Origin: Cohnella faecalis
GTDB taxonomy: Bacteria; Bacillota; Bacilli; Paenibacillales; Paenibacillaceae
Direction: 5' to 3'
Assembly (NCBI RefSeq): GCF_003570905.1
Contig: NZ_QXJM01000023.1
Span: forward strand, 1-64,000
Length of the DNA stretch: 64,000 nt
Below the pieces are notes generated by a model. The model was not told the DNA's origin and did no database searches. It saw nothing but the letters and a program-made list of their open reading frames with translations. Numbering within the stretch: the stretch's first letter is position 1; every line of letters begins with the position of its first letter. Below are positions 4,405 through 53,790 of the stretch, piece after piece. The translations under genes were made by a program, and so were the position numbers.

Positions 4405-4656
4405 AATCAGTGCTTGGCGTGATTTGTACTATTTTTCACACAAGTTGCCCCCAAATCTGCTCCACTCGATGCATGTTGTACGAAAAATCACACAAAATCG
4501 TGGATGGCATCCAAAAAAGCGAAAAGTTGTACGATCTTTCATATAAAACACCTGTCATCGCCTGAAAAAAGACCGTTCCTTGTATGAAAAATCGTACAAA
4601 ACGGCCTTCCACTCTTACGCGCTCCAGCCAACATCATCATGGGTCAAGCACTGATT
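4405..4656. repeat. Interspersed array of four ~22-bp imperfect palindromes with ~52-bp period, flanked by 12-bp inverted repeats
   Basis: Copies start at 4424, 4476, 4527 and 4580 (steps of 52, 51, 53). The consensus is close to TTGTACGAAAAATCGTACAA, an inverted repeat with an A-rich centre; copies differ at several positions. The ~30-bp stretches between copies are not obviously alike. The array is enclosed by AATCAGTGCTTG (4405-4416) and its exact reverse complement (4645-4656). Further out, the 8-bp direct repeat AAGCTAGG occurs at 4385-4392 and 4670-4677. The block lies after the terminator at 4343-4376 and before the promoter at 4698. The rest of the 4277-4880 gap holds no gene that I can see. 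Confidence 0.75.
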
Positions 4657-4697
4657 CCGGTTTTGGGCCAAGCTAGGATTGCTTTTTTAATTCCGAC

Positions 4698-4726
4698 TTG
4701 ACATATGTGAATTATGGATTTAATAT
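4698..4726 (+). promoter_or_regulatory. Strong sigma-A promoter upstream of the MarR remnant
   Basis: TTGACA (4698-4703), 17-bp spacer, TAATAT (4721-4726), in an AT-rich stretch. Confidence 0.75.
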
Positions 4727-4742
4727 TAGCTCACAGTATTAC

Positions 4743-4763
4743 AACGCTCATTAAATGAGCGTT
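4743..4763. promoter_or_regulatory. 21-bp palindromic operator candidate
   Basis: AACGCTCATT, one central A, then AATGAGCGTT: perfect 10-bp arms. It begins 17 bp after the -10 box, near the predicted transcription start, the position expected for a MarR-type autorepressor site. Confidence 0.55.
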
Positions 4764-4880
4764 AAAATAATTTCATATGCCGATTGGACCGCCAAAGGCC
4801 GCAACGCACTCCTGATAGGGGAGGAAGTTGGGGTCTTTTTTGTCGATTAAGGGGTCGGGCGCCAAGAAGGAAAGGAGCGT

Positions 4881-5240
4881 ATGGTGGACAACGAGTGGTC
4901 ACGACTTGAAGAGATCGACTGGCTTTTTCGCCGAATGGTCAGAAAGTTCGTTAAGGAACGCGACAAAATCGCGATTGAAGGGGTGGCGTTGCCGGCATGC
5001 TCGTGCTGAGCAAGATTGTGCGAGACGGAGAACAGAAGCTGGGCGATCTGGCGGAACAGCTTGATCTGACCTCGGGAGCGGATCACCCGCATTGTGCGAT
5101 AAGCTGGAGGAAAAAGGGTTCGCGACGCGACGCCGAATGGCGGAGGATCGAAGAACGGTGCTGCTCGATATTAGGAAAAGGGCGCAGCTTGTTGGCATCC
5201 TGTCTGGGAAACACATGCTTCGCGGAAAAAGGGATCGGAG
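4881..5240 (+). pseudogene. MarR family regulator, broken by several indels
   Basis: Reading across frames gives a MarR-like N terminus (WSRLEEIDWLFRRMVRKFVK), helix material GMLVLSKIVRDGEQKLGDLA and EQLDLTSGAITR, and the wing DKLEEKGFATRRRMAEDRRT with VLLDI. At least four single-base changes separate these pieces: near 4994, about 5078, 5097 and 5170. AAGGAG lies just before ATG 4881 (GTG 4884 would be better spaced). The last segment resembles a MarR C terminus (KGRSLLAS) but runs into the end of a convergent chemoreceptor fragment. Indels are denser here than elsewhere in the window, so this may be real decay and not only sequence error. The promoter at 4698 and palindrome at 4743 still look intact. 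Confidence 0.6.
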
Positions 5241-5619
5241 TAGAAATACGTGGTGATGAGTATGCCTTGCAAGCCTGAAAAGAGAATCGGACGGTAATTC
5301 ATGTAGCGTCATGACGGCGAGGTTCATGTACACGAGAAAATAAGTGCCGGGAACGGGATCGGTGTCTCCGTTAATGAGCAGAAAGGTGACAACCGAGATA
5401 ATGGTCGCACGACGTACATGACGTACCCGCTGCCGATTTCCTTGTACGCCATGATTGTCGCGATCGCGCAGGTGACGGCTCCGACGACGGCAACGTCATA
5501 ATAATGTTGAAGCTTGCTCCGATCATCAGGTCGGACGCGATGCCGAGCGCGAGCATCGCCCACAAAATGCGGGCAAACAATTTGTTACGCTTGACGAGGA
5601 CGGCGGTTGATTCGTTCAT
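5195..5619 (-). pseudogene. N-terminal membrane part of a methyl-accepting chemotaxis-like sensor, frame-broken and truncated
   Basis: From ATG 5619 the minus strand encodes KRNKLFARILWAMLALGIAS. In shifted frames it continues VAVVGAVTCAIATIMAYKEI, GSGYVMYVV, VTFLLINGDTDPVPGTYFLV, YMNLAVMTL and NYRPILFSGLQGILITTYFY. This is a multi-helix membrane region like the N terminus of some Paenibacillaceae chemoreceptors; no HAMP or signalling domain follows, because the convergent MarR remnant begins there. A partial sigma-D-like -10 (ACCGATAA on the minus strand, + 5675-5682) lies upstream but without a matching -35. It could be a pseudogene left by a deletion joining two genes, or a misassembled junction. 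The family assignment is from recalled resemblance only. Confidence 0.45.
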
Positions 5620-5718
5620 AGTTCGTCATTAGTCCACCTTTCGGCGTTAGGGATATTTTCTTTATCATATATGATTATCGGTAAGTTGACGATAAAAAAA
5701 GAGACCGTTTTACTCGGA

Positions 5719-5747
5719 TTGGGGCAAAAGTCAAGTTGTGGTATGCT
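5719..5747 (+). promoter_or_regulatory. Putative sigma-A promoter for the helicase gene
   Basis: TTGGGG (5719-5724), 17-bp spacer, TATGCT (5742-5747), 31 bp before the TTG start at 5779. Confidence 0.45.
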
Positions 5748-5778
5748 TTAGGCATCAAAACGAGAGGGAGCCGGTGCT

Positions 5779-8700
5779 TTGACGACGTTGAAGAGCCTGT
5801 CGTTTCATCCCGTTGTAAGCGAATGGTTCTCGGAATCGTTCGGAGAACCGACGGACGTTCAGCTTCAAGCCTGGAGTGCGGCCATGGACGGACGGCATAC
5901 GCTCATTGCCGCACCGACGGGGTCGGGCAAGACGCTCGCCGCGCTTCTTCCGTGTCTGGACAAGCTTGTACGGGCGAAGCTGGAGAAGTCCGATGAAGCG
6001 GGAGCTGCCGCAGGATGGCATCCGGGCGTTCGAATTTTATATATTACGCCTCTTAGAGCTCTAAACAACGACATTCTCCACCATGTTGCCCGCTTTACCG
6101 AAGAGCTGGACGGCAGGGCGGCGAGAAGCGGCCGGCCTTGGCCGGGCGTTCGCTGCGCCGTGCGGACGGGCGACACGAGCTCCGCCGCTCGCGCTTCGAT
6201 GCTGAAGCGGCCGCCGGACGTGCTCGTGACGACCCCCGAGTCGTTGTATATTTTGCTGACGTCGCAAAAAGGGAGCGCCATGCTCGGCACCGTCCGGCAT
6301 GTAATCGTCGATGAAATTCACGACATGGCTGCGGATAAGCGCGGCTCCCATCTCACGCTGTCGCTCGAGAGGCTCGAATGGGTGTGCAGGCGGCCTGTTC
6401 AAAGAATCGGCGTGTCTGCGACGCAAAAGCCCTTGGAACGAGTCGCCCGATTTCTGGGAGGCTGGGAGCCTTCCGGCGAGCGGGGAGGCACGGAACACCC
6501 GCTCGGTTATTTTCCGCGTGCGGTAACCGTTGTCGAGAGCGCGATGGAAAAGGCGCTGAGCGTATCCGTAACGATGCCCGACCCGAGCAGAGTCGCATCG
6601 TCCCGCGAGCAAGTGTGGCTCCCGCTGCTTGACCGAATCGTGGAGCTTATGGAGGGATGCCGTTCCGTTCTGTTGTTCGTAGGCAGCCGCAGGCTTTGCG
6701 AGCGGCTTTGCTTGCGGCTGAACGATCATGTCGGCTACGAGATGTCCCGCACCCATCACGGCAGCATGTCCCGGGAAAGACGGCTGGAGGTCGAACGGCT
6801 GCTGAAAGCCGGAGAGCTGCGCTGCATTGTCGCCACCTCGTCGCTGGAGCTCGGCATCGATGTCGGACACGTCGATCTCGTCATTCAGATCGATTCCCCG
6901 ATTTCGGCCGCTTCCGGCATTCAGCGAATCGGCCGCGCCGGTCACGCGGTCGGGGAAACGAGCCGAGGCGTTATTTTGTCGCGGCAAAAAGGAAACTTGC
7001 CGGAAATCGCCGTGCTAAGCCGGCAAATCGCCGCGCGGGATATCGAGGAAATACGCGTCCCTCGCCAGGCGATGGACGTGCTCTCCAGCAAATCGTGGCG
7101 ATGGCGGCAATGAACGATTGGAGCCTTGCCGAGCTGTATGGTCTGATTGTGCGGAGCGACAGCTATTTCGACTTGCCTCGCGAAAGGCTGGAAGAGCTTC
7201 TGCAAGTGCTGTCCGGCTTTTATCCGTTTGCGCGCCCGCTGCTCGAATGGGATCGAGAGGATGGGACGGTCCGCAGGAAAGGCGGCGCTTCCGCGATGGC
7301 TGCGATCGTGGGCGCGGGTACGATTCCGCAAAGCGGCGGCTATCCGGTACATCATCTTGACAGCCGAGTCCACCTCGGAGAGCTCGACGAAGAGTTTATT
7401 CAGGAGAGCCGGGTTGGCGATGTGTTCCAGCTTGGGACGAGCTCATGGATAATTCGCGACATCCGAAAGGACCGCGTCTACGTCAGCGAAGCGGCGAACC
7501 GGTTCAGCGAGGTTCCTTTTTGGCGCAATGAATCGGGATCGCGTTCTTATGAATTGGGCGCAAGGATCGGCGCATTTTTACGGGAAATGACGGATCGGCT
7601 GGCGTCCGGCCATTCGGTGACGGAGGATAATACCCGCTCTGTCGAAGAGGAGATCATGAGCTTTCTTGCGGAACGGTACGGGATGGACGCCGACTCCGCG
7701 GATCTGCTCATCGGGACGATCCGTTCGCAGAGTCAAGCCAGCGAGCTGCCGACGGACCGTCGCATCGTAATCGAGACGTACAAGGACTTGACGAACCAGA
7801 CGCACGTTATCGTGCTGAATCATTTTGGCCGCCGGGTCAATCGGGCTTGGCAGCTTGCGATCGAGCGCCAGTTCGAGCAGCTGCTGCCGTACCGGATGTA
7901 TGGGAACGCCAAGGACGACGGCATCGAATTCGTGCTGCCGGAATGGGATGCGTCGTGGCTGCGGACGATCAGCCAGGTGACGCCTTCGAACGTGGAGAGT
8001 CTGCTGACGGAGGCGATCGCAGGTTCCCCGTTTCTCGCGGTCGCGTTCCGACGAATCGCCGAGACGGCGCTGCTCCTTTCTCGCAGCTTTACTCGAACTC
8101 CTCTCTGGCAGCAGCGCCTTCGAAGCGAAGAGCTGCTGCGCGACGCGATGCCGTACGCGGAACGGTTCCCCTATTTGCGGGAAGCGATGAAGGTATGTCT
8201 GTACGAATATTTGGACTGCGATCGTCTCAAGCGAGTGCTGGAAAACATTCGCGACGGCGAGATAGAGGTCGTCGTGCGGGAAACCGGACATCCTTCTCCG
8301 TTCGCATCCAAATTTTTGGCGGATTACGTGAATATGCGGATTTACGAGGGAGACGGCATCGACGAAACGCTCAAGCTTCAATTGATGAGCGTCAGCAAGG
8401 AGCTGGCACAGCAGCTTTTCGGGGCCGACTCCGCCCGGAGCGCCGTGCCGTCGACGATCGTCGACGAGGAAAGCCGCCGGCTCGCCGAGCCGGATAGGGC
8501 GCTTGAGCGCGCGGAAGATTTGGTGCCGCTGCTGAAAGGTCGTGGCGACATGACCGCAGCCGAAATAAGCAAGCTGGCGGGAGCCGGCGCTCTGGAATGG
8601 CTGGAGCTTATGCATGAACGAGGCCGCCTCACTCCTCTCGATATTGCGGGAGATGGCGAGCTTCGCTGGATTTGCGCCGATGAAAGAGAGCTTTACGAGC

Positions 8701-10212
8701 ATTTTCCGAGTTCGGCGGACTCCGTATCGTTCATCGTCGGCCGCTACGCGGACAATCGTCTCTCTTTTACCGAACCTGAGCTGTGCGAACGTTATCCGGT
8801 CTTAACCTTGGCCGAGGCCACTCGGATAGCCAACGAGCTGATTTCGCAGGATCGGCTGCAAAGATCGCCTCACGCCGCCGACGATCAAGAGCGCATCTGG
8901 ACGAGCTCGAAGGTAGCATCGCGGTTGATTCGGCTCTCCGTCGGACAAGCCCGGCGGCAGACCGAGCCGGTCGATCCGGTACGATGGTGCGGCCATATCG
9001 CTCTGTTGCAGCACGCGCTGCAAGGCAGCCAGCAGCAAGGCTATGACGGACTGCGCACGGTTATCGCTGCGCTGCAGGGGTTGTTCGCACCATTGTCCCA
9101 GTGGGAGACGATTCTGTTTCCTTCCGTTTATCCGCCTATCGCAAAGAGGATCTGGACTTGCTGTGCGGTTCCGGAGAAGTGATCTGGATCGGTCGCAAGG
9201 AAGATGGCGACAAGGAAGGGAAAGTCGCCTTTTTCCTGGCGGAGTCCAAGGAACTGCTCGCTCCGTTCATTCAAGCGATTCATAAGGCGGATACTCCGAC
9301 CAAGCATCCGGGCTTGCTGCGCAAGCTGAAGGAAGAGGGAGCGAGCTTCCTCACCAAGCTTAGCAGGGAAGAAGGCAAGCCTCCTTCCGAGGTTCTGGCC
9401 GATTTGCTCGATCTCGTATGGGAAGGAAGAGCGTCCAACGATCAATTCGCGCCTCTTCGTCTCTCGTTGCATGCCAAAGGCGGCAAGAGCTCCTCGAAAT
9501 TCGGGTCGGGCTTCGGAAGATGGTACTGGATCGGCGAGCTTGACGAGCCGTCGTTCCATCCGGATCCGGTGGAGGAAAGCAAGAGGACGTACTTGGCCGG
9601 TCGGCCGTTCAATGGGCGGGCCATCTTATGAAAAGCTTCGGCATGATCAATAAAGAGCTCGTCAAGCTGACTCCGTTCTCATGGGATGCGATATACCCCG
9701 TTCTCATCAGGCTGGAGGAGTGGGGGACATTAACCCGAGGCGCCTATTTGCGCGGAGAAGCGTCCCTTCAATTCTCGACGAAGGAATCGGCGGATTCGAT
9801 GCGGCAGCCGCTGCCGGAACTTGGGCAGGTGGCGCTTACCGTCTTGAGCTCGGTCGATCCTGCGAATCCCTATGGATTGGCAGCCGACTGGCCTCATTCC
9901 GCACACAAGGAAAAGTATTCGAGAAAACCAGGCAACTATTTGGTTTTGTACGGCGGACGATGGCTTTACTGGATCGAAAATAACGGAAAAAGGATTTTTC
10001 GGGCAGCCGCCGACGATGCGGAGAATGCCGAAGACTCGGGAGCGGCATTATTGAAAAATGTGCTCTACGTCATGCTTCGCAGGCAAAAAAAGGCCAAAAT
10101 CGTCATCGACGAATGGAACGGTTCTCCCGTGCTTGAGACCGATACAGGGAATCGGCTGCTAGAGCTTGGCGCCGAACGCGACATGAAATCGCTCGTTTTC
10201 TGGGCCCATTGA
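5779..10212 (+). CDS. lhr: Lhr-type ATP-dependent DNA helicase (DEAD/DEAH superfamily 2), about 1,475 residues, three frame breaks
   Basis: Large helicase-related protein, a 3'-5' SF2 helicase implicated in DNA repair. Seen in order: Q-like motif EPTDVQLQAW, Walker A APTGSGKT (residues 45-52), motif Ia ITPLRALNND, TTPESLYILL, Walker B DEIH (178-181), motif III SATQKP, then domain 2 with CIVATSSLELGIDVGHVDLV and QRIGRAGHAVGE. After that come a winged-helix region (KSWRWRQ/MNDWSLAELYGLIV) and the long Lhr C-terminal domains, ending VIDEWNGSPVLETDTGNRLL. The start is TTG 5779 with GAGGGAG upstream. Frames change near 7090, 9123 and 9600; each is repaired by one base (for example one C in TTCC near 9123), so the gene is probably intact. 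Total length fits full-length bacterial Lhr. It stands alone between a decayed region and the FMN riboswitch. Confidence 0.85.
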
Positions 10213-10226
10213 TTCGACGGTCGGAA

Positions 10227-10255
10227 TTGCAATTTTCCTCGTCGGGTGGTAAACT
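10227..10255 (+). promoter_or_regulatory. Promoter of the riboflavin operon
   Basis: TTGCAA (10227-10232), 17-bp spacer, TAAACT (10250-10255). Transcription would begin about 10 bp before the FMN riboswitch. Confidence 0.55.
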
Positions 10256-10272
10256 AACTTTCAATTAGCAGC

Positions 10273-10451
10273 TTACCTTCGGGGCGGGGTGTAATTCCCC
10301 ACCGGCGGTGATCGGCGCGGCGCGGACGACAATCGTTCGCGTGCCGCCGTCAGTCCGTGACCCGTCTGTCTCCTTCGATCGAATCGCGGAGACGGCGGTG
10401 GACCCGGTGCAATTCCGGGACCGACAGTGACAGTCTGGATGGGAGAAGGAA
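10273..10451 (+). promoter_or_regulatory. FMN riboswitch (RFN element)
   Basis: The conserved RFN blocks are all present: an opening near TACCTTCGGGGCGGGG, then TAATTCCCCACCGGCGGT, AGTCCGTGACCCG, GGTGGACCCGGTGCAATTCC, GGGACCGACAGTGACAGTCT, and closing GGATGGGAGAAGG. One variable arm (about 10315-10350) is a long GC-rich hairpin. It binds FMN and lowers expression of the downstream rib genes. The expression platform follows after ~200 nt, ending in the terminator at 10657. I see no gene between 10213 and 10732. Confidence 0.95.
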
Positions 10452-10656
10452 GCGCAGCGCGGCCTTGCCGCGTCACGTACGCATCTTGGCGCATACCCTA
10501 GACGAGAAGTAGAACGCTTTGATTTGTTCTTTTTTTCACAACGTCGGATTGCGCCCAGGACTCGGCTGTTCGGTCGATTTACGACTAGACTCCGGTTCTG
10601 TTAGCGATGCCGTTCGTGCCGCGAATGTAGAGGCTTTTTTATCGCTGTGCCTACAT

Positions 10657-10698
10657 GTCCCGTTAGCGTCTTGCGCTTGCGGGGACTTTTTGTTGTTT
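10657..10698 (+). terminator. Riboswitch-controlled terminator before ribD
   Basis: GTCCCGTTAGCG (10657-10668) pairs with CGCTTGC and GGGGAC (10674-10686) with one mismatch and a bulge, followed by TTTTTGTTGTTTT. It lies 35-75 nt before the ribD start. A second possible stem pairs ATGTAG..GGC (10625-10634) with GCCTACAT (10649-10656), directly abutting the terminator; which pairing acts as antiterminator is not resolved. Confidence 0.7.
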
Positions 10699-10732
10699 TC
10701 CGAAGAGTCGATAAGAAGGAAGGAGGCGAAGC

Positions 10733-26195: not shown

Positions 26196-27650
26196 ATGGC
26201 GATTTGGAGAACTGTCGTCGGCAAGCTATGGCTGACGATCATACTGCTCGTTGCTGTCGTTATATCGTCGATCGGTCTATTTTCATTGAAGTACATTGAC
26301 TTGACGTTTTCCGATCCGAACAAAGTTAAGCATCTGTTCATTTATGTCGGAATAATCGGGTTTACGCTAACGACGGTATTCGCTTTCTTCTTGCTTACGA
26401 AGATTACGCAGCCGCTGCGCGAAATGAAGGAAGCGGCCGATCGCGTCTCGCACGGCGAATACTCGACTCGCGTAACGATTCGCAGCTCCGACGAAATCGG
26501 CGAGCTGGCCAATACGTTCAATCAGATGGCATCGGAACTGGAGACGCTCATTCGTGCGCTGCAGCACGAGCGCAGACATTTGAGCAGCGTACTCAACAGC
26601 ATGAACGACGCCGTCGTATCTTTCGACGCGGAAGGCGGCATCATGCTGACGAATCCGCAAGGACGACATTTGATGGAAGAGTGGGCCGAGGTGGAGTGGG
26701 GAGACGATGAGGAGGATTCCGGCTTCACGGGAAGCGTTCCGGGCCCGTTGCTGGAAACGTTCCGCAGCGTTATCTCCGGCCGCAAGGAGCTGACGGCCAA
26801 AATCCACGTGCAGAGCGGAGTATGGTCGATCGTTATGACGCCGCTTGCTTCGACGGACTCTGTCCGGGGCGCTGTGGCCGTTCTTCGAGACGTAACGGAG
26901 GAGTTCCGTGTCGAGAAGCTGCGCAAAGATTTCGTCGCCAACGTATCCCACGAAATCCGCACGCCGTTATCGATGGTACAAGGCTACAGCGAGGCGCTGC
27001 TCGACGATATCGCGGGCTCTCCCGAGGAACGTCGGGAGCTTGTCCAGGTCATTCACGACGAGTCGCTGCGGATGGGCAGGCTGGTTAAGGATTTGCTCGA
27101 TTTGGCAAGGATGGAAGCCGGTCATCTCGAGATGACGTTCCAATCGGTCGATGTATCGGCGCTAATCGGACGGGTGTACCGGAAGTTCGCCGTACTTGCG
27201 AAAGATAGAGGAATTTCGCTTACGAAGAACGAGTCGGAAATTCCGCTTGTATTGGAAACCGCCGATGCCGATCGTCTGGAGCAGGTGCTGACGAATTTGC
27301 TGGACAATGCGCTTCGTCATACTCCGGCGGGTTCGGGTATTCAGATGCAGACGAAGAAGGTGGAGTCGCCGCGCGGCGATTCGATCGTCTTGACCGTCTC
27401 GGACGAAGGACAGGGAATTCCCGCCGCCGATCTTCCTTATATTTTCGAACGCTTCTACAAGGCGGATAAGGCACGAAAAAGAGAGAACGGCGGGGGCGGC
27501 ACCGGACTCGGGCTGGCCATCGTCAAAAACCTCGTCGAAGCGCACGGCGGCAAAATCAAAGCTGCCAGCGATCTGGGCAAAGGCACCGTATTTACGATTA
27601 CACTGCCCGTTAAGAGAAGAAGCGCCGGCGGCCGCTCTCGAAAGAGCTGA
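26196..27650 (+). CDS. resE: Sensor histidine kinase ResE
   Basis: Partner kinase of ResD, 484 residues. Two membrane helices (about 10-30 and 48-67) enclose only ~16 extracytoplasmic residues, whereas B. subtilis ResE has a much larger outer loop. Next come HAMP (LTKITQPLREMKEAADRVSH), a PAS domain (HLSSVLNSMNDAVVSFDAEG), HisKA with His252 (FVANVSHEIRTPLSMVQGYS) and HATPase_c (NLLDNALRHTPAGSG, DEGQGIP, IFERFYKADKARK, GGTGLGLAIVKNLVEAHGG). The short loop suggests sensing through the PAS or membrane part. A terminator follows. Confidence 0.92.
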   Translation: MAIWRTVVGKLWLTIILLVAVVISSIGLFSLKYIDLTFSDPNKVKHLFIYVGIIGFTLTTVFAFFLLTKITQPLREMKEAADRVSHGEYSTRVTIRSSDEIGELANTFNQMASELETLIRALQHERRHLSSVLNSMNDAVVSFDAEGGIMLTNPQGRHLMEEWAEVEWGDDEEDSGFTGSVPGPLLETFRSVISGRKELTAKIHVQSGVWSIVMTPLASTDSVRGAVAVLRDVTEEFRVEKLRKDFVANVSHEIRTPLSMVQGYSEALLDDIAGSPEERRELVQVIHDESLRMGRLVKDLLDLARMEAGHLEMTFQSVDVSALIGRVYRKFAVLAKDRGISLTKNESEIPLVLETADADRLEQVLTNLLDNALRHTPAGSGIQMQTKKVESPRGDSIVLTVSDEGQGIPAADLPYIFERFYKADKARKRENGGGGTGLGLAIVKNLVEAHGGKIKAASDLGKGTVFTITLPVKRRSAGGRSRKS

Positions 27651-27677: not shown

Positions 27678-27706
27678 AAGCCCGGAGGCTCAGCCGCCGG
27701 GCTTTT
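27678..27706 (+). terminator. Terminator of the res cluster
   Basis: GCCCGG (27680-27685) pairs with CCGGGC (27697-27702), with an inner GGCT/AGCC stem, then TTTT. Confidence 0.75.
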
Positions 27707-27750
27707 GTGCGGAAAAGCGCCGTTGTGCGGCCCTCATTGAGTGGTTGGCG

Positions 27751-28824
27751 CCAAGAGAGGTACCCAGTACCATACATTCGGCGAACGGCGGTTATGGAGC
27801 GCCAAGTGAGGTACCCAGTACCATACATTCGGCGAACGGCGGTTATGGAGCGCCAAGAGAGGTACCCAGTACCATACATTCGGCGAACGGTGGTTATGGA
27901 GCGCCAAGAGAGGTACCCAGTACCATGCATTTGGCGAACGGCGGTTATGGAGCGCCAAGAGAGGTACTCAGTACCATACATTCGGCGAACGGCGGTTATG
28001 GAGCGCCAAGTGAGGTGCCCAGTACCATACATTCGGCGAACGGCTGTTATGGAGCGCAAAGAGAGGTACCCAGTACCATACATTCGGCGAACGACGGGCA
28101 TGATGAGTCAAGAGAGGTACCCAGTACCATGCATTCGGCGAACGGCGGTTATGGAGCGCCAAGAGAGGTACCCAGTACCATACATTCGGCGAACGGCTGT
28201 TATGGAGCGCAAAGAGAGGTACCCAGTACCATACATTCGGCGAACGACGGGCATGATGGGTCAAGAGAGGTACCCAGTACCATGCATTTGGCGAACGGCG
28301 GTTATGGAGCGCAAAGAGAGGTACCCAGTACCATGCATTCGGCGAACGACGGGCATGATGCGCCATGAGAGGTACCCAGTACCATACATTCGTCAAACGG
28401 CGGTTATGGAGCGCAAAGAGAGGTACCCAGTACCATACATTCGTCGAACGACGGGCATGATGCGCCAAGAGAGGTACCCAGTACCATACATTCGTCAAAC
28501 GACGGTCATGGAGCGCCAAGAGAGGTACCCAGTACCATACATTCGGCGAACAGCGGGCATGATGGGTCAAGAGAGGTACCCAGTACCATGCATTCGGCGA
28601 ACGGCGGGCATGATGCGTCATGAGAGGTACCCAGTACCATGCATTCGGCGAACGGCGGTTATGGAGCGCAAAGAGAGGTACCCAGTACCATACATTCGTC
28701 AAACGACGGTCATGGAGCGCCAAGAGAGGTACCCAGTACCATACATTCGTCGAACGGCGGGCATGATGCGTCATGAGAGGTACCCAGTACCATACATTCG
28801 GCGAACGGCGCATATTGAGCGCAA
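27751..28824. repeat. Tandem array: 21 copies of a 51-bp unit
   Basis: Copies begin at about 27751 and every 51 bp to about 28771. Each has a nearly fixed half containing GGTACCCAGTACC, an inverted repeat of GGTAC/GTACC around CCA, then a variable half. The variable half comes in two main blocks: one with GGCGGTTATGGAGCG, the other with GACGGGCATGATG. They are interspersed along the array, which suggests recombination between units. Because 51 is a multiple of three, long open frames exist on both strands (17-residue periodic peptides), but they lack ribosome sites and substitutions are not synonymous-biased in either forward frame I compared, so I do not call a gene. The array lies between the resE terminator and the serA terminator; the whole gap 27651-28885 has no other content. 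Confidence 0.95.
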
Positions 28825-28834
28825 AGAGTGACGC

Positions 28835-28869
28835 AAAAAGCCTGAAGGTCAGCGACCTTCAGGCTTTTT
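28835..28869. terminator. Bidirectional terminator between the 51-bp array and serA
   Basis: Perfect 16-bp stem: AAAAAGCCTGAAGGTC (28835-28850), loop AGC, and its exact complement (28854-28869). A-run on one side and T-run on the other allow use from both strands. Confidence 0.92.
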
Positions 28870-28885: not shown

Positions 28886-30478
28886 TTAATAGAGGTGAAT
28901 TTCCTTGGCGTTGTTCAGGTCCGGAAGAGCCGCGAGTTGCGTCAATACTTCCTTCGGAACGCCTTTGTCGACTCCAAGCACCATGATAGCCGCTCCGGCA
29001 ACTTGCTTACGTCCGACTTGCATCGTAGCGATGTTGACGTCGTTGCCGCCAAGAAGCGTGCCGACGCGTCCGATAATGCCCGGTTTGTCGTGATGGGAAA
29101 TAAGGAGCAAATGACCTTGCGGCTCGACGTCGACCGGGAACTTGTCCACTTGAGTAATGCGAGGACCGAAGCCGTTAAGCAGCGTGCCGGCGACGAAACG
29201 CTCTTCTTTGTCCGTACGGAGCGTTACGCTGACTTGGTTGGTGAACCCTTTGGAAGCGGTCGATTTTGTAACGACAATGTTTACGCCGCGCGTTTTGGCC
29301 AAGTGCATTGCGTTGACCGCGTTCACTTGATCCGAGCCGAGGTGATGGGCGAGAACGCCTTGCACGACGTAGCGGGTAAGCGGCTGAGTATCGACGTCAG
29401 CCAAGTCGCCTGCGTAACCGACGACAATTTCCTTGACCGGTCCTTCAGCGATTTGAGCGGCGAACGAACCGAGCTTCTTGCCGAGCGTGAAGTACGGCTC
29501 GAGCTTGGACAGAACATCGGCAGGAACCGGCGGCATGTTGACCGCGTTTTTGAACGGCTCGTTGCGCAAAATGTGAAGCAATTGCTCGGAAACGTCGATC
29601 GCCACATTTTCCTGGGCTTCAATCGTTGAAGCGCCAAGATGAGGGGTTACGATAATTTTAGGATGCTTCAGGAACGGGTGATCCGCTGCTGGCGGCTCTT
29701 CCTCGAATACGTCGAACGCGGCTCCGGCGACGATGCCCGCATCGATCGCTTCGACAAGAGCGTTCTCGTCGATAATGCCGCCCCGTGCGCAGTTGACGAT
29801 CCGAACGCCTTTTTTAATGCGGCCGAATTGCTCTTTGCCGATCATGTGGCGAGTTTCCGGAGTGAGCGGGGTATGGACGGTGATGAAATCGGCATCGCGA
29901 ATGATGTCTTCAACGGAAGCTAATCTTACGCCGAGCTTTTCCGCCCGTTCTTCCGTCAAGAACGGGTCATAGCCGTATACTTCCATGCCGAACGCTTTGG
30001 CGCGCGCGGCAACCTCGCTGCCGATACGGCCCATTCCGAGAACGCCGAGCACTTTGTTGCGAAGCTCGACTCCAACGAACGATTTGCGGTCCCAAACTCC
30101 GCCGACCGTTTTCAAATACGCTTGAGGAATGTGGCGGGCAACCGCCATCATCATAGCGAACGTGTGCTCGCATGTAGTGATCGTATTGCCGTCCGGAGCG
30201 TTGATGACGATGATGCCGCGCTTGGTAGCGGCATCCAGATCGATATTGTCGACACCGACGCCTGCGCGTCCGATGACTTTCAACTGCGTGCCGGCCGTCA
30301 TGATCCGTTCGGTAACGCGAGTTTGGCTGCGAACGAGAAGAGCGTCGTATTCGCCGATAATGGCGACAAGCTCGTCTTCGCTGAGGCCCGTTTTCTTATC
30401 GATCGTAATGTCGTTCGCTTCGACGAGCAGAGAAATGCCCAGATCGCTGATCGGGTCCGATACTAACACTTTAAACAT
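28886..30478 (-). CDS. serA: D-3-phosphoglycerate dehydrogenase
   Basis: Oxidises 3-phosphoglycerate to 3-phosphohydroxypyruvate, the first step of serine synthesis. 530 residues from MFKVLVSDPI; a longer in-frame start at 30514 is rejected because GGGGGA sits just before 30478 and the longer start falls in the leader hairpin. Domain order: substrate/NAD domain with GMGRIG (148-153), NCARGGIIDE and TPHLGAST; the intervening ASB domain; a C-terminal ACT domain (HLLLISHHDKPGIIGRVGTL), the usual site of serine feedback. This is the long (type I) form. A conditional-looking terminator lies in its leader. Confidence 0.96.
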   Translation of the reverse strand: MFKVLVSDPISDLGISLLVEANDITIDKKTGLSEDELVAIIGEYDALLVRSQTRVTERIMTAGTQLKVIGRAGVGVDNIDLDAATKRGIIVINAPDGNTITTCEHTFAMMMAVARHIPQAYLKTVGGVWDRKSFVGVELRNKVLGVLGMGRIGSEVAARAKAFGMEVYGYDPFLTEERAEKLGVRLASVEDIIRDADFITVHTPLTPETRHMIGKEQFGRIKKGVRIVNCARGGIIDENALVEAIDAGIVAGAAFDVFEEEPPAADHPFLKHPKIIVTPHLGASTIEAQENVAIDVSEQLLHILRNEPFKNAVNMPPVPADVLSKLEPYFTLGKKLGSFAAQIAEGPVKEIVVGYAGDLADVDTQPLTRYVVQGVLAHHLGSDQVNAVNAMHLAKTRGVNIVVTKSTASKGFTNQVSVTLRTDKEERFVAGTLLNGFGPRITQVDKFPVDVEPQGHLLLISHHDKPGIIGRVGTLLGGNDVNIATMQVGRKQVAGAAIMVLGVDKGVPKEVLTQLAALPDLNNAKEIHLY

Positions 30479-45173: not shown

Positions 45174-45184
45174 GAGAGACCGGT

Positions 45185-47217: not shown

Positions 47218-47234
47218 CGTTCCGCGCACTCGCG

Positions 47235-47267: not shown

Positions 47268-47278
47268 ATAGAAGGTTT

Positions 47279-47308: not shown

Positions 47309-47349
47309 ATTGACCGCTTTGAGCTTAGTGTGGACGGAGGAATCGAGTC

Positions 47350-47529: not shown

Positions 47530-47553
47530 GATAGGAGAGGGGGCCGCTGCCTC

Positions 47554-47847: not shown

Positions 47848-47877
47848 CGAAGAAGCAATGGATGGGAAGTGACGCTC

Positions 47878-48468: not shown

Positions 48469-48818
48469 GCGCGCTCGTGACGGTCACATTTTTGCCTGAC
48501 GGCCGTTCGATTCAGGTGCGGCCGGGTACGACTCTGCTGGACGCTTCGAGACGAGCTCGCGTTTCGATTCGAACGAGATGCGGCGGTGTTGCCGGCTGTC
48601 TGATGTGCAAAGTGACGGTTGCCGCCGAATACGAGTCGTCGTTGAACGCGCCCCCGGCTCCGGAAGCTCGGAAGCTCGATACGCTGCTGGACGAAGGCGT
48701 TCGGTTGTCCTGTCAAGCGCGTGTGAAGGCGAATGTCGTCGTAACCGTGCCGGAAGACCCTCTTAAAGCCGCTATTCGTAAAAAATTGGCGGAGCAGCAA
48801 GCGGAGGAGGAATGGTAG
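48465..48818 (+). CDS. 2Fe-2S ferredoxin-like protein (second of two)
   Basis: 117 residues, GTG start overlapping the previous stop. Cys39, Cys45 and Cys48 in TRCGGVAGCLMC and Cys83 in RLSCQAR fit a [2Fe-2S] site, with CX5CX2C instead of the CX4CX2C of its neighbour. The C-terminal tail (AIRKKLAEQQAEEEW) is charged. The two ferredoxins are clearly diverged rather than recent copies. Confidence 0.82.
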   Translation: MSALVTVTFLPDGRSIQVRPGTTLLDASRRARVSIRTRCGGVAGCLMCKVTVAAEYESSLNAPPAPEARKLDTLLDEGVRLSCQARVKANVVVTVPEDPLKAAIRKKLAEQQAEEEW

Positions 48819-48846
48819 ATTGATCGCAATTACGGGAGGAAAGACG

Positions 48847-49572
48847 ATGTCGATTTTTACTCGATTCGGCAGCGCGGCGCTGATAGCTTTTCTGATGCTG
48901 ATCTTATCGGGCTGCTTGTACCCGGATGAGCAGCGCGCAGGAGCGAACGCTTCCGCCCGCGAAGCGGTATTGACCGTGCAAGACGCTGTCGACCGTTACA
49001 AGGCGAGCACCGAAGTGCTTCCGATTGTGAACGCAGACGCCGATGTTCCGATTTACGAGAAATTCAAGCTTGATTTTGGCAAATTGCAACGAACGGGTTA
49101 TCTCGCGAGCATTCCCGGCATCGCTTTTGAGAACGGCGGTACGGTTGTATTTATCGTCATTGACGAAGAGACGAAGCCGCAGGTCAAGCTCATGGACGTC
49201 GTCGTCTTCCAGGCGGTCGACGGCGTGCAAAGCCGCGTGAACGAATATCGGAAAAAGCACCAAGGCGATAATCCGGCCGGAGAGGAAGCCTATCCCGGGT
49301 TCCGTACGATCGACTTCGGAAAGCTTGGCGGCAGCGAGCCCAAAATTCGCAGCATGTATTCGGGACAAACCCTTAGCCTGCTCGTGAACGACAAAGGAAT
49401 CGTGTACGTCGATTACGGAATCGACATCTCGGCGGCATTGAAAAAGACGGACGCCGCTCCGGGGGCGGAGGAGGACTTGCGCCGCCGGCTAGTCGACGCA
49501 TCGTACTACGTGCCGGTCAAGTCGCCTGTGTACCGATGGGTAGGGGAAGCCCCGCAGGCGGTCGAATCCTGA
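48847..49572 (+). CDS. YphF-like lipoprotein
   Basis: 241 residues from ATG 48847 (GGGAGG upstream; a TTG at 48820 is in frame but the signal peptide then starts late). Lipobox LSGC with Cys23. The outer part has LTVQDAVDRYKASTEVLPIV, RTGYLASIPGIAFENGGTVV and IRSMYSGQTLSLLVNDKGIV; no catalytic motif. B. subtilis yphF lies in the same place before spoIVA. Function unknown. Confidence 0.75.
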   Translation: MSIFTRFGSAALIAFLMLILSGCLYPDEQRAGANASAREAVLTVQDAVDRYKASTEVLPIVNADADVPIYEKFKLDFGKLQRTGYLASIPGIAFENGGTVVFIVIDEETKPQVKLMDVVVFQAVDGVQSRVNEYRKKHQGDNPAGEEAYPGFRTIDFGKLGGSEPKIRSMYSGQTLSLLVNDKGIVYVDYGIDISAALKKTDAAPGAEEDLRRRLVDASYYVPVKSPVYRWVGEAPQAVES

Positions 49573-49600
49573 GCGAAATAATCCATTCGATGAGATTCAA

Positions 49601-49634
49601 GGAGATTGTCCCTTAGGGGACGGTCTCCTTTTTT
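49601..49634 (+). terminator. Terminator after the YphF-like gene
   Basis: GGAGATTGTCCC (49601-49612), loop TTAG, GGGACGGTCTCC (49617-49628), then TTTTTT. Confidence 0.9.
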
Positions 49635-49668
49635 ATTGTGTGAATACGCAAAGAAGGGCAAGCCGTAG

Positions 49669-49697
49669 TTGACAAAACAAGTTGTCAGGAATATAGT
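49669..49697 (+). promoter_or_regulatory. Promoter and overlapping palindromic operator of the MarR-MFS unit
   Basis: TTGACA (49669-49674), 17-bp spacer, TATAGT (49692-49697). The inverted repeat TGACAA / TTGTCA (49670-49687, 6-bp spacer) covers the -35 box, and another TGACAA lies downstream of the -10 (49703-49708). The arrangement suggests autorepression by the MarR protein. Confidence 0.65.
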
Positions 49698-49735
49698 TGT
49701 TATGACAATCAAATGAAAAGGGGCGTAATAGAGCG

Positions 49736-50176
49736 ATGAATCGATCCGGTTTGGACGACTCGATCGGATTTCGGCTAGGAATTACGTATCGGAAGCTCTC
49801 GCATCTGTTCAATCAGCGTCTCAAGTCATATGAACTGACTCCGGAGCAATGGGCGGTGCTGGTACGCGCTGCGGAAACGGACGGCTCGATGCAGAAGGAT
49901 ATCGCCGAACGGGCAGGCAAAGACCGGCCGACGACGACACGAATTATTGACGCTTTAGAAGCGAAGGGCTTTATCGTCAAGCGTGCGGGCGATCATGACA
50001 GGCGATCTTTTCTGGTCTTCGCGACCGAGAAGGGGAAACGAACGGTCAAGGAGGTCGAGCCGCTCGAGAGCAGGACGATGGACGAAGCGATGGAAGGAAT
50101 TTCTCCATCGGACCGGACGCTGCTCTTCGAGCTGCTCGAACAGATTAACGTCAATGCGGACAAGCTTTCGCAATAA
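49736..50176 (+). CDS. MarR family transcriptional regulator
   Basis: 146 residues with the MarR winged helix: FRLGITYRKLSHLFNQRLKS, LTPEQWAVLVRAAETDGSMQ, RPTTTRIIDALEAKGFIVKR and the wing GDHDRRSFLVFATEKGK. It is followed 21 bp later by an MFS drug-type exporter, a common repressor-efflux pair responding to toxic small molecules. Inverted repeats across its own promoter support autorepression. Confidence 0.9.
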   Translation: MNRSGLDDSIGFRLGITYRKLSHLFNQRLKSYELTPEQWAVLVRAAETDGSMQKDIAERAGKDRPTTTRIIDALEAKGFIVKRAGDHDRRSFLVFATEKGKRTVKEVEPLESRTMDEAMEGISPSDRTLLFELLEQINVNADKLSQ

Positions 50177-50197
50177 GGCTGGAGGACTGACTACATC

Positions 50198-51387
50198 ATG
50201 ATTGAACAGAAGAATCAAGCGCTTTGGACCCGGTCGTTTGTCATACTGACGCTGGGTAACTTTTTGTTGTTTTTGGGATTGCAATTGCTCATCGCACCGT
50301 TTCCTACTTACGTGAAGGAGCATTTCGGTTCGGGCGAGATGGTCGTCAGTCTGGTGACCAGCTTGTTCGCCGCTTCGGCTATCGTCGCCCGGTTCGTTAC
50401 GGCGGCGTTGATGCGACGCTTTTCGAGGAACGCAATCCTGATTGCGGGAATCGCAATTGCGGCCGTATCGACAGGTCTATACTCGTTCGCGGAATCGATA
50501 CCTAGGCTCCTGCTGCTAAGGGCCGGGTTCGGCTTCGGCTTTGGGATGTCGAGCACTGTGCTGCCGACGATGGTGACGCAGATCATACCGGGAAAAAGAA
50601 TCGGAGAAGGAATCGGCTACTTTGGCTTATCGACCAGCCTTGCGATGTCGCTAGGTCCGATGATCGGGATTCAAGTGCTCGAGGTTAACGGATTCGCCTC
50701 TCTCACTGCGCTGGGCGCGGGCGCCATCGCGTTCATTTTGCCGCTTATGTTCGGAAGCCGCAGCATTCCCGTCCAGCCTATCGCTGCAAGCAAAGAACGT
50801 TCTTCCGCTACGAAAGGGCCGTTCCTAAGCAAAGTGTGGCTGCCCGCTCTTCTGAATACGCTATTGGCCGTTACTTATGGGGGTTGCTCGGATTTCTTGC
50901 TTTGTACGGGGAGGAAATTCACGTTGATCACGTTGGGTTATTTTTCTTGTTCAACGTAGCTTCGGTACTGATCGTACGGCCCCTCTCGGGACGATTGTTC
51001 GACCGGAAGGGACCTGCGGCGGTGCTGCTGCCCGCAGCCTTGTTTTCCGTGGCGGGCTTGCTCATTCTCTCCTACGCTCACTCGCTCGGCATGCTCATTT
51101 TGTCGGCGCTTCTGTACGGCGCGGGCTTCGGGGCGATCCAGCCGACGACGCAAGCATGGATGATCAGAGCCGCCGGACCGGAAAAACATAGCGCATCGAA
51201 CAGCTTATATTACAATACGACGGATATCGGCGTTGCCTTCGGATCGATGCTGCTCGCCGAGGTGGCGTCAGCCGTCGATTATGCGTTCATGTATCGGTTC
51301 GCCTCCGGGATCATGGTGCTATTCGTTGTCCTTCAATTCGTCGATTTGGCGAAGGGGCGGAGTAAGCGAAACGCCGCGGCGGCTTAA
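50198..51387 (+). CDS. MFS transporter (drug-efflux type), one frame break
   Basis: Twelve-helix major facilitator. First half: FVILTLGNFLLFLGLQLLIA, FAASAIVARFVTAALMRRFS (motif A-like), AGFGFGFGMSSTVLPTMVTQ. Second half: VGLFFLFNVASVLIVRPLSG, RLFDRKGPAAVLLPAALFSV, GAGFGAIQPTTQAWMIRAAG. The frame breaks in GGGGG near 50880: one G more gives TYGGLLGFLALYG, so the gene is probably intact (about 396 residues). Substrate unknown. Confidence 0.88.
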
Positions 51388-51425
51388 CGGCGGTCTTGTT
51401 TTAGACAGGCTAGCTAAGGATGAAC

Positions 51426-51465
51426 AACGGCTTTGTCGTCTTTCGGAGACGGCGAAGCCGTTTTT
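51426..51465 (+). terminator. Terminator after the MFS gene
   Basis: AACGGCTTTGTCGTC (51426-51440) pairs with GACGGCGAAGCCGTT (51448-51462), then TTT; the GAAGCCGTTTTT end recurs at about 51563-51575. Confidence 0.8.
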
Positions 51466-51473
51466 ACTTGGAA

Positions 51474-51518
51474 TATCAGATAAGTATAAGTTTTCGATCT
51501 TCTTATATTTATCTGATA
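51474..51518. repeat. 17-bp inverted repeat between the MFS gene and spoIVA
   Basis: TATCAGATAAGTATAAG (51474-51490) and its near-perfect complement (51502-51518, one mismatch) around an 11-bp loop. AT-rich, without a T-run. It sits between two copies of the motif GAAGCCGTTTTT(A/G)CTTG. No gene is visible in 51388-51778. Confidence 0.7.
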
Positions 51519-51667
51519 CCGACGCAAAGCTACTTCGACGTTCAAGGAACGCCGAAGCCGTTTTTGCTTGTTCAATCATGTTTTGCGCAGCGGCTTCATA
51601 TGATCATGGAGGATATAGGCAGGAAGCCGATTTTGTTCGCCTTCAGGTTAAACATTTTGGCTGCGGC

Positions 51668-51696
51668 GTCATAAACCGGACAAACGCACATACAAT
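51668..51696 (+). promoter_or_regulatory. Sigma-E promoter of spoIVA
   Basis: TCATAAA within 51668-51675, 13-bp spacer, CATACAAT (51689-51696), the consensus -10 of the mother-cell sigma-E. spoIVA is sigma-E dependent in B. subtilis. Confidence 0.7.
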
Positions 51697-51778
51697 GTTA
51701 CCAGTCCAAGTTCGTGTACGAGTTCCGTCGCGCTGGCGGGTCACGAAGGTTTCGCGATTACGATGGGAGGGAATCTCA

Positions 51779-53257
51779 GTGGAAAAAGTAGACATTTTCA
51801 AAGATATTGCCGAGCGCACGGGAGGCGATATCTACCTTGGGGTCGTCGGCGCCGTCCGCACGGGCAAATCGACCTTTATCAAGCGGTTCATGGAAACGGT
51901 CGTGCTGCCCAATATCGCGCACGAAGCTGATCGGATCCGGGCGATCGACGAGCTGCCGCAAAGCGCAGCCGGTCGTACGATCATGACGACGGAACCGAAA
52001 TTCGTACCGAATAACGCGGTTCAGCTAAAAGTGGCCGAAGGCCTCGAAGTCAATGTGAGGCTCGTCGACTGCGTCGGATATACGGTTGAAGGGGCCAAAG
52101 GGTTCGAAGACGAAGGCGGCCCGCGCATGATTACGACGCCTTGGTTCGAAGAACCGATTCCGTTCCAGGAAGCTGCCGAGATCGGCACGCGCAAAGTTAT
52201 TCAGGAGCATTCGACGCTCGGCGTTGTCGTGACAACAGACGGTTCTATCGCGGAAATCCCGCGCAGCGCATACATCGAAGCGGAAGAAAGAGTCATTAAC
52301 GAGCTGAAGGAAGTAGGCAAGCCGTTCGTCCTCATCGTCAACTCGGCGCGTCCGAAGAGCGAGGAAGCCCAGACACTTCGCAGCGAGTTGGCGGCCAAAT
52401 ACGATATTCCCGTCCTCACGCTTTCCGCTGCGACGATGGGCGAGGAAGAAGTGACGGGCGTTCTGCGAGAGGTGCTCTACGAGTTCCCCGTACACGAAGT
52501 AAACGTCAATCTTCCGAGCTGGGTTATGGTATTGAACGAAAATCACTGGCTGCGCTCCGCTTACGAAAATTCCGTTCGCGAGACGGTCAAGGATATTCGC
52601 CGTCTCCGCGACGTCGATCGGATCGTAGCCCAATTCACGGAATACGACTTCGTAGCCCGTGCGGGGCTAAGCGGAATGAATATGGGGCAAGGCGTCGCAG
52701 AGATCGATCTGTTCGCGCCGGATGAGCTGTACGACAAAATATTGACCGAGGTCGTAGGCACCGAAATTCGCGGCAAAGACCATTTGTTACAGCTGATGCA
52801 GGATTTTGCCCATGCGAAGAGGGAGTATGACCGGTTCGCGGAAGCGCTCGAGATGGTCAAAACGACGGGCTACGGAATCGCGGCTCCGACGCTCGCCGAG
52901 ATGGTGCTCGACGAGCCGGAGCTTATCCGCCAAGGCTCCCGCTTCGGCGTTCGCCTGAAAGCGACCGCTCCATCGATTCATATGATCCGCGTCGATGTCG
53001 AATCCGAATTCGCTCCGATCATCGGAACGGAGAAGCAGAGCGAAGAGCTCGTCCGTTATCTGATGCAGGATTTCGAGAAAAATCCGATCAAAATTTGGGA
53101 TTCCGACATTTTCGGCCGTTCGCTCCATTCGATCGTCCGGGAAGGAATCCAGGGCAAAATCGCGATGATGCCGGACAATGCGCGCTATAAGCTGCAAGAA
53201 ACGCTCGGCCGCATTATTAACGAAGGCTCTGGCGGCTTGATAGCTATTATTCTTTAG
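51779..53257 (+). CDS. spoIVA: Stage IV sporulation protein A (spore coat base ATPase)
   Basis: Polymerises by ATP hydrolysis on the forespore surface and is the platform for the spore coat. 492 residues, the usual length. N-terminal TRAFAC-type domain with Walker A GAVRTGKS (24-31), TTEPKFVPNNAVQ and DCVGYTVEGAKGFED; then the conserved middle and C terminus ending EGSGGLIAIIL. GTG 51779 has GGGAGG 8 bp upstream; the open frame extends far upstream but only as chance reading. Its own sigma-E promoter precedes it. Confidence 0.97.
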   Translation: MEKVDIFKDIAERTGGDIYLGVVGAVRTGKSTFIKRFMETVVLPNIAHEADRIRAIDELPQSAAGRTIMTTEPKFVPNNAVQLKVAEGLEVNVRLVDCVGYTVEGAKGFEDEGGPRMITTPWFEEPIPFQEAAEIGTRKVIQEHSTLGVVVTTDGSIAEIPRSAYIEAEERVINELKEVGKPFVLIVNSARPKSEEAQTLRSELAAKYDIPVLTLSAATMGEEEVTGVLREVLYEFPVHEVNVNLPSWVMVLNENHWLRSAYENSVRETVKDIRRLRDVDRIVAQFTEYDFVARAGLSGMNMGQGVAEIDLFAPDELYDKILTEVVGTEIRGKDHLLQLMQDFAHAKREYDRFAEALEMVKTTGYGIAAPTLAEMVLDEPELIRQGSRFGVRLKATAPSIHMIRVDVESEFAPIIGTEKQSEELVRYLMQDFEKNPIKIWDSDIFGRSLHSIVREGIQGKIAMMPDNARYKLQETLGRIINEGSGGLIAIIL

Positions 53258-53271
53258 ACTAATTGGAAAAG

Positions 53272-53313
53272 AACCGATGCGGCCGCCGGGACGGTAACCG
53301 CATCGGTTTTTTT
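53272..53313 (+). terminator. Terminator after spoIVA
   Basis: AACCGATGCGG (53272-53282) and CCGCATCGGTT (53298-53308), then TTTTTTT. Confidence 0.92.
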
Positions 53314-53394
53314 GTCATTTTCGATCACCATAACTCCGCCGGCTGTCCGATCCGAGCGGCGTTCCTTGTCCGGGTGCCAACGCTTGTGCGATTT

Positions 53395-53790
53395 TGTGAG
53401 AGCGGGCCGAAATAAGGCGCTCACAGTTACTATGGCGGGGGAATGGAGGGGATCGAGCCGAAATAAGGCACTCACAGTTACTATGGCGGGGGAATGTGTG
53501 GGAGCGGGCCGAAATAAGGTACTCACAGTTACTATGGCGGGGGAATGTGTGGGAGCGGGCCGAAATAAGACACTCACAGTTACTATGGCGGGGGAATGGA
53601 GGGGATCGGGCCGAAATAAGGCACTCACAGTTGCTATGGCGGGGGAATGTGTGGGAGCGGGCCGAAATAAGACACTCACAGTTACTATGGTGGGGAATGG
53701 AGGGGGACGAGCCGAAATAAGGCACTCACAGTTACTATGGCGGGGGGAATGGAGGGGAGCGAGCTGGAATAAGGCACTCACAGTTACATG
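53395..53790. repeat. Tandem array: 8 copies of a 51-bp unit
   Basis: The GCCGAAATAAG start of each unit falls at about 53406, 53457, 53508, 53559, 53610, 53661, 53711 and 53763 (steps 51, 51, 51, 51, 51, 50, 52). The unit core is AAGGCACTCACAGTTACTAT, followed by GGCGGGGGAATG and one of two linkers, GTGTGGGAGC or GAGGGGATC, used irregularly. Unrelated in sequence to the 27.7-kb array but equal in period. It lies after the spoIVA terminator and before the promoter at 53944; the remaining gap to 54014 has no gene I can support. Confidence 0.92.

Follow-up and report, generated by a model that had tools for sequence, protein, structure and literature searches.

The window, by which is meant the whole stretch of 64,000 nucleotides at the start of contig NZ_QXJM01000023.1 of Cohnella faecalis, contains three arrays with a period close to 51 bp, and these belong to families whose pitch is constrained separately from their sequence. 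Array 2 (27748..28828, + strand, family A) lies in the convergent gap between a resE-like sensor kinase gene and serA and consists of 21 direct copies of a 51-bp unit free of insertions and deletions, scored as 21.2 copies by Tandem Repeats Finder (TRF). Array 3 (53400..53787, + strand, family B) is placed between spoIVA and a sugar-binding protein gene and has about 8 direct copies, most of them 51 bp long (7.6 copies of 51 bp by TRF). Array 1 (4424..4601, no strand assigned, family C) is formed by four palindromes starting at 4424, 4476, 4527 and 4580 with steps of 52, 51 and 53, the pitch of the family being 52 at other loci. The array 1 motif spans 20 bp with the consensus TTGTAYGA-N4-TCRTACAA and some mismatches per copy, the copies differing from TTGTACGAAAAATCGTACAA at 1-3 positions, and with up to 5 mismatches allowed it is matched 4 times in the window compared with once in one shuffled window. 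The spacers between these palindromes are mutually unrelated by eye, and TRF at score 50 misses the array, which is not a tandem repeat by that program. An earlier sequence-only reading of this DNA had placed the three arrays correctly, as TRF shows for arrays 2 and 3 and the motif positions for array 1, together with their copy numbers and steps. It had also called their sequences unrelated, which agrees with a score of 27-28 between the units of arrays 2 and 3, a likeness no better than that of shuffles (means 26-28). Its count of three repeat arrays holds for arrays 2 and 3, which are in addition members of dispersed families, and does not hold for array 1, a palindrome at fixed pitch.

Single-base steps are to be read with some error because parts of the draft assembly (6.43 Mb, 65 contigs) look redundant, three locus pairs on different contigs agreeing at 99.35-99.68% of positions, with 0-4 mismatches and 10-14 gap openings. 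A segment of about 2.3 kb that contains array 1 (window about 2900-5200, L061) is present twice, and the second copy (L062, G000:C33:1428059-1430358) differs from the first by no mismatches and 13 gap openings, which is probably assembly redundancy; the array 1 steps in this copy are 52, 52 and 53.

Within the array 2 unit, the core GAGGTACCCAGTACCAT varies by no more than 0.05 per position (0.10 at its second base) over the 21 copies, and the other positions vary by up to 0.43. A length of 51 bp is divisible by three, and array 2 is covered by an open frame of 374 codons, as would suit coding repeats of 17 residues. Against this, the coding score per codon of arrays 2 and 3, from a gene model trained with the arrays masked, is negative in all six frames compared with 0.17-0.24 for four real genes, the variability of array 2 by codon position is flat (0.073, 0.070 and 0.078), and pitches of 50 and 52 also exist. 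The coding score and the codon-position variability rule out coding repeats, whose probability is close to nil, and arrays 2 and 3 are non-coding.

Members of families A and B lie dispersed through the C. faecalis genome. Family A has 67 matches at E<=10, with 40 of the 52 candidate places scored and a 51-bp array present at all 30 loci fetched, and family B has 66 matches with all 28 candidates scored. The census cut throughout is a TRF array with at least 2.4 copies and a period of at least 20. Of 57 arrays listed for the genome, 56 have a period of 51 and one of 52, in a list drawn from loci picked by likeness to A and B plus a sample and including one array inside a collagen-like coding gene, arrays split by insertion sequences (IS) and counted twice, and two from redundant contigs. 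A systematic 400-kb sample, which is unbiased, holds 23 arrays, 10 with a period of 51 and one of 52, and by eye these comprise several sequence families beyond A and B; both TRF arrays of the window itself fall at 51-52. Three families (A, B and C) are defined in this genome by search and four more by eye. Family A is matched in 2 of 60 genomes and family B in 3 of 60, the own genome being counted in each case. Two loci of the same genome are separate observations: a CRISPR-like array with repeat GTCGCACCTCGTGCAGGTGCGTGGATTGAAAT and a period of 65-66 at about 1927-2752 of L072 (G000:C57), and a collagen-like coding gene at L088 6244-8568, in which 18- and 87-bp repeats give rise to a spurious 51-bp row.

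The same period recurs across the genus. The Cohnella DNA sampled (1.74 Mb) contains 32 arrays of period 49-53, spanning 50-53 with two at 50, compared with a single array of period 49-53 in 1.53 Mb from outside Cohnella. At the resE loci of named Cohnella species (25 loci, 531 kb), all five arrays are at 50 or 51 in five species with sequences that differ by eye; the resE locus of C. caldifontis has an array of 1.9 copies, below the cut. Other Cohnella genomes, covered by 40 stretches (741 kb), have 23 arrays of which 14 are at 51-53, coding status not being examined array by array. The resE-serA gap that holds array 2 in C. faecalis is occupied in Cohnella sp. CFH 77786 by a 50-bp array (L141 12870-13135) whose sequence is unrelated by eye. 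Outside the genus, 55 resE loci (1.15 Mb, one neighborhood of about 21 kb each) hold no array above the cut, a zero that speaks for those loci only because such repeats are described as particularly abundant in Paenibacillus (PMC8161180). Among 20 further stretches of other genera (0.38 Mb), one of nine arrays has a period in this range. Outside Cohnella, L262 18167-18459, in a genome (G040) from a different family of the same order, holds a 51-bp array of 5.8 copies, whose GCGGGC-GCCCGC hairpin is not significant (p 0.23). The arrays are real and widespread in the genus as sampled. The earlier proposal of a constant period with free sequence holds in the own genome and in the sampled genus, and the even genome-wide spread of periods that it named as grounds for rejection is not seen, the counts at 49-53 being 32 and 1.

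The Cohnella arrays have in common a short core that recurs every 50-52 bp and that in many, though not all, cases is a palindrome of 20-26 bp. In 32 Cohnella units hand-picked from TRF outputs, with A and B each entered twice, a palindrome is significant at p<=0.05 in 10 (6 at 0.01), compared with none of 6 units of other periods, and with loops of up to 8 allowed the count is 8 of 29 units at p<=0.05 and again 0 of 6 controls. The Bacillus units in Table 1 of PMC8161180, submitted to the palindrome test, give 16 of 24 at 0.05 and 11 of 24 at 0.01.

The clearest separation of pitch from sequence is found in C. cholangitidis, where the hairpin TARCGGCAC-N3-GTGCCGYTA has 200 core matches compared with 4 for the reversed pattern. 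Over 33 arrays, read with up to 2 mismatches in the core, 141 of 171 steps are exactly 51 and 159 are within 50-52, and the spacers of different arrays share a mean identity of 0.31 with a maximum of 0.85. Because the 33 arrays were found partly by likeness to one 51-bp array, exact cores were also listed without regard to pitch (98 places in 0-2.93 Mb), and 52 of the 61 steps under 80 bp are 51, with 6 more steps of 102. C. panacarvi, in which the same core pattern has 74 matches compared with 3 reversed, shows 53 of 57 steps at exactly 50 over five arrays with a spacer identity of 0.36, and it also carries a 51-bp array of other sequence beside this 50-bp family. In C. faecalis, the family C palindrome, present at five of the loci scanned (the window, L063, L065, L067 and L070), gives 8 of 10 steps at exactly 52, both of the others being those of array 1, and its spacers differ apart from one common to L063 and L065. 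Since the steps are fixed in C. cholangitidis and C. panacarvi despite differing spacers, pitch is constrained apart from sequence; it is a property of the core family (50, 51 or 52) and is kept even with unrelated spacers. Steps of 61 and 62 bp, one extra turn, were too few for use.

These sets bear directly on how the constant length arose. In tidy tandem arrays, copying could cause it, and the sets of unrelated spacers at the same pitch argue against that. One account has a single old tandem array whose length was kept by unequal crossing-over and slow fixation of insertions and deletions while its sequence drifted, as is consistent with the tidy direct repeats of A and B, with a TAA/TTA foot seen by eye in some hairpins of different species, and with those C. 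cholangitidis arrays whose spacers are related (up to the 0.85 given above). This inherited period is unlikely in view of spacers that are equal in length and unrelated within one array, and of family C, which keeps its pitch without tandem repetition. Locus L335 illustrates the first point with four hairpins enclosing three unrelated spacers of 28 nt each. L328 also has three unrelated 28-nt spacers, which are then repeated as a 153-bp unit, and L298 has two spacers in alternation, from which we infer that mixed spacers came first and multiplication later.

Equal-length unrelated spacers, in L335, L328 and family C alike, would also be produced by an enzyme that adds a core, or a spacer plus core, at a fixed distance from an existing core, with evening-out following later. 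CRISPR integrases add units of fixed length. A piece of 112 bp made of two spacer-plus-core units is common to L063 (1369-1479) and L065 (1499-1610) in reversed orientation, 106 of its 112 positions being identical, and one of its ends coincides with the end of a hairpin, as such a copying ruler might leave it. Unit copies do travel, yet the pitch needs no tandem copying. The pitch differs by one base in two species with nearly the same core, which an enzyme acting in trans would allow. Weighing on the other side, C. panacarvi holds a 51-bp array of other sequence beside its 50-bp family, a search of viral contigs (viral_contigs) with pieces of three spacers gives no exact match, and there is no candidate enzyme, the domain PF01797 of REP-associated tyrosine transposases (RAYT; REP, repetitive extragenic palindrome) having no match in the genomes of the window, C. 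cholangitidis and C. panacarvi. Copying by a ruler is a possible origin of the pitch to which we give a distinctly smaller share of belief than to a spacing protein.

The position of the arrays relative to genes was counted with a home-made gene caller, with arrays and insertion sequences masked and redundant contigs dropped. The 59 classified arrays lie in 34 tandem gaps, 24 convergent and 1 divergent, made up of 18, 12 and 1 in the own genome, 15, 10 and 0 in C. cholangitidis, and 1, 2 and 0 in C. panacarvi; a further 21 arrays at an edge, 2 overlapping a called gene and 4 loci without a TRF array fall outside the count. The background of 255 gaps, from the own sample and the window only, comprises 189 tandem, 30 convergent and 36 divergent. 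The arrays favor convergent gaps (Fisher p 1e-6 for the convergent excess and 0.006 for the divergent deficit). Clustering the neighboring genes by likeness shows by eye none in common apart from transposases and common paralogues, no search for cas genes having been made.

In the window, array 2 is flanked on the left by the sensor kinase gene (26196..27650, + strand; HisKA, HATPase_c and HAMP domains), presumably resE from synteny, whose product has its best named matches in Cohnella species at up to 77% identity, and on the right by the convergent serA for D-3-phosphoglycerate dehydrogenase (28886..30478, - strand; PGDH_inter and ACT). Array 3 has spoIVA on its left (51779..53257, + strand; three SpoIVA domains) and the gene of a periplasmic sugar-binding protein on its right (54015..55148, + strand; Peripla_BP_4). 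A terminator-like hairpin precedes each array on the + strand, at 4343..4365 for array 1, at 27680..27706 behind resE for array 2, and at 53272..53313 behind spoIVA for array 3. Downstream are a promoter-like site TTGACA-17-TAATAT at 4698..4726 (+ strand) for array 1, a two-way terminator-like hairpin at 28835..28869 (no strand assigned) for array 2, and a promoter-like site TTGACA-17-TATCAT at 53944..53972 (+ strand) for array 3. Such flanking signals had been proposed from the letters alone, and scans return those at 4343, 4698 and 53944; the hairpins at 27680 and 28835 are missed by the scan and found only by reading the sequence, and of the one at 53272, also read from the sequence, the scan lists the inner part (53296-53308). 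Promoter- and terminator-like sites of this sort are about equally frequent in shuffled sequence. Elsewhere in the window, Rfam identifies a flavin mononucleotide (FMN) riboswitch at 10271-10454 and a tRNA gene at 58235-58308.

These surroundings are relevant to a role in RNA, in which transcribed arrays would act as strings of hairpins serving as sponges, terminators or small RNAs. The arrays follow gene ends, hairpins form in one in three of the Cohnella units tested and in two in three of the Bacillus units, and related satellites are reported as transcribed in Bacillus coagulans (PMC8625621). For the window arrays, the sequence-only reading had predicted little transcription. A constant pitch has no obvious reason under such a function in RNA, A and B have no significant hairpin, and terminator-like hairpins are read ahead of arrays 2 and 3, so that an RNA role is improbable.

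Insertion sequences use the arrays as targets, with 16 of 18 full copies of three elements inside arrays. An IS3-type element (rve, HTH_21) has all 6 of its full copies in family A arrays, a 98-bp piece being ignored, and a Mutator-type element (Transposase_mut), which we take to be IS256-like, has 7 of 9 full copies in 51-bp arrays of more than one family, the exceptions being L373 and L375; six of the seven are seen directly and the seventh (C44) is placed from coordinates, and a 147-bp piece is ignored. In C. cholangitidis, an IS66-type element has all three of its matches in hairpin arrays, and another IS3-type element splits array L318. Since arrays account for 1.6% of the own sample and for 8.4% of the non-coding DNA in it, the 13 of 15 own copies inside arrays greatly exceed chance expectation (p 1e-12 relative to the non-coding share). 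The arrays also mark the places in these genomes where three insertion sequences have settled.

Targeting by insertion sequences, together with an extragenic position near gene ends and often palindromic cores, would fit REP-like palindromes moved by a Y1 transposase of the RAYT type. The units are direct and not alternating, and PF01797 has no match in 25 of the 37 Cohnella genomes, among them the array-bearing genomes of the window, C. cholangitidis and C. panacarvi, and matches in 12 of the 37. This absence rules out RAYT as the mover, and the account as a whole is very hard to credit.

Individual arrays turn over between close relatives. C. mopanensis and C. cholangitidis are 83.8% identical over 16 kb around resE, and in 200 kb compared each has one pitch-51 hairpin array, neither in common; the C. 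mopanensis resE-locus array is also absent from C. cholangitidis, so that none of the three compared arrays is common to both. A short C. mopanensis repeat in the same 200 kb is given a period of 34 or 50 by TRF. A candidate empty site, where one C. cholangitidis array stands opposite a short C. mopanensis junction, was set aside as insertion and deletion are indistinguishable there.

Along the C. cholangitidis chromosome the main hairpin core is missing from an arc of 1.80 Mb, running from 5.56 Mb over zero to 0.954 Mb. When the 38 listed loci are placed at random, a gap that large arises in 4 of 20000 trials, the list being complete for exact cores in 0-2.93 Mb and drawn beyond that from a likeness search with 40 of 49 candidates scored, and no exact core is present in the 381 kb read within the arc. 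With exceptions, the GC skew of mostly small pieces turns between 2.70 and 3.00 Mb, so that the arc probably holds the terminus. Inside the arc, the arrays read carry different hairpins with a pitch of 51 or 52, two of these varying the same theme. In C. panacarvi, matches to a stricter form of the search pattern are confined to 1.24-4.09 Mb, and the skew turns, noisily, between about 2.1 and 3.0 Mb. Families A and B are mixed on the 1.8-Mb contig of the own genome, which speaks against a general regional rule, and the data give a hint of regional families of cores. A sequence-blind ruler of five turns, in which core families of the same pitch label the origin side and the terminus side and are read by a structure-sensitive nucleoid-organizing protein as a macrodomain-like addressing in Firmicutes, is a speculation to which we give a slim chance.

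In our view, a protein that requires five-turn spacing is the likeliest cause of the constant pitch and a unit-copying ruler the next. Pitch would be kept by selection through a protein assembling from core to core at about five helical turns, a proposal that we hold tentatively and at slightly less than an even chance. Each core would be bound either by a dimer of the protein or in the form of an extruded hairpin, and assembly from one core to the next would need a repeat of about five turns. Arrays would grow and probably be evened out by unequal exchange, giving tidy tandem arrays such as 2 and 3, and sets that escape evening-out would look like array 1. A position behind genes and away from divergent promoters would fit a nucleoid-organizing or insulating element, and insertion sequences would use the arrays as landing sites. 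Several observations weigh against the spacing protein. No binding protein was found, RAYT being the only domain searched for; 51 bp corresponds to 4.86 turns at 10.5 bp per turn, so that phasing is rough only; 12 of the 171 C. cholangitidis steps fall outside 50-52; families A and B, the main ones of the window genome, fail the palindrome test (p 0.6-0.9), and 22 of the 32 units have no significant palindrome; the variety of cores among families would call for several proteins or for a single structure-reading one; and the tidy repeats of A and B could equally be accounted for by copying alone. The sequence-only reading had offered phased protein binding or copying, and of this the evidence now separates the pitch from tandem copying, with both agents as candidates.

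Neither slippage nor the common mobile elements readily explain repeats whose length stays constant while their sequence is lost. The sets with unrelated spacers make the question testable by keeping the core and varying the pitch, and the palindromic core, present also in 16 of the 24 Bacillus units, is a bait for such a test.

Compared with known systems, array 1, L335 and L328 resemble CRISPR in having short palindromic repeats with unrelated spacers of equal length between them. The Cohnella arrays differ from it in a pitch of 50-52, in tens of loci per genome, in spacers that are mostly alike within an array, and in the lack of an exact viral-contig match for pieces of three Cohnella spacers. 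REP elements are likewise extragenic and targeted by insertion sequences, reportedly including IS1397 and ISKpn1, and they are palindromic, as some Cohnella cores are and those of families A and B are not by the palindrome test; Cohnella arrays 2 and 3 differ from them in their direct, not alternating, orientation and in the pitch of 50-52. The likeness extends to the mosaic clusters of REP (bacterial interspersed mosaic elements, BIME) and to the REPINs, some of which form tandem clusters (PMC2817692, PMC3116915), and ISPpu9 is reportedly another insertion sequence that targets REP (PMC8450116).

The closest match is the class of non-coding satellites of 51-53 nt and variable sequence described by Subirana and Messeguer in 2021 for about 30% of the Bacillus species in a study of 176 genomes (PMC8161180). 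Arrays 2 and 3 are members of this class, for which that paper proposes a protein of the nucleoid that polymerizes on the DNA and needs a constant repeat size, or small RNAs. The suggestion that the arrays are something undescribed therefore does not stand, the class having been reported in that 2021 paper for Bacillus with Paenibacillus mentioned. The shared features are a non-coding nature (arrays 2 and 3), a period of 51-53, species-specific sequence and several families per genome; the copy numbers of arrays 2, 3 and 1 (21, 8 and 4) all reach the four-repeat minimum of the 52-nt satellites. The published repeats often contain short signals together with their reverse, are likened in that paper to CRISPR, and differ in part from strain to strain; among the Cohnella units, 10 of 32 have a palindrome at p<=0.05, families A and B have none, and the array 1 motif is palindromic. 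The Cohnella arrays differ in a modal period of 51, with 50 and 52 by family, in sets of unrelated spacers, in targeting by insertion sequences and in the bias to convergent gaps. The main text of PMC8161180, its supplements and 2020 predecessor being outside the comparison, contains none of the terms palindrom-, hairpin, insertion sequence, transpos-, Cohnella, spacer or convergent. Judged against that main text, the new features are sets of unrelated spacers at one pitch, a pitch specific to each family, targeting by insertion sequences, the convergent bias and the hint of a regional arrangement.

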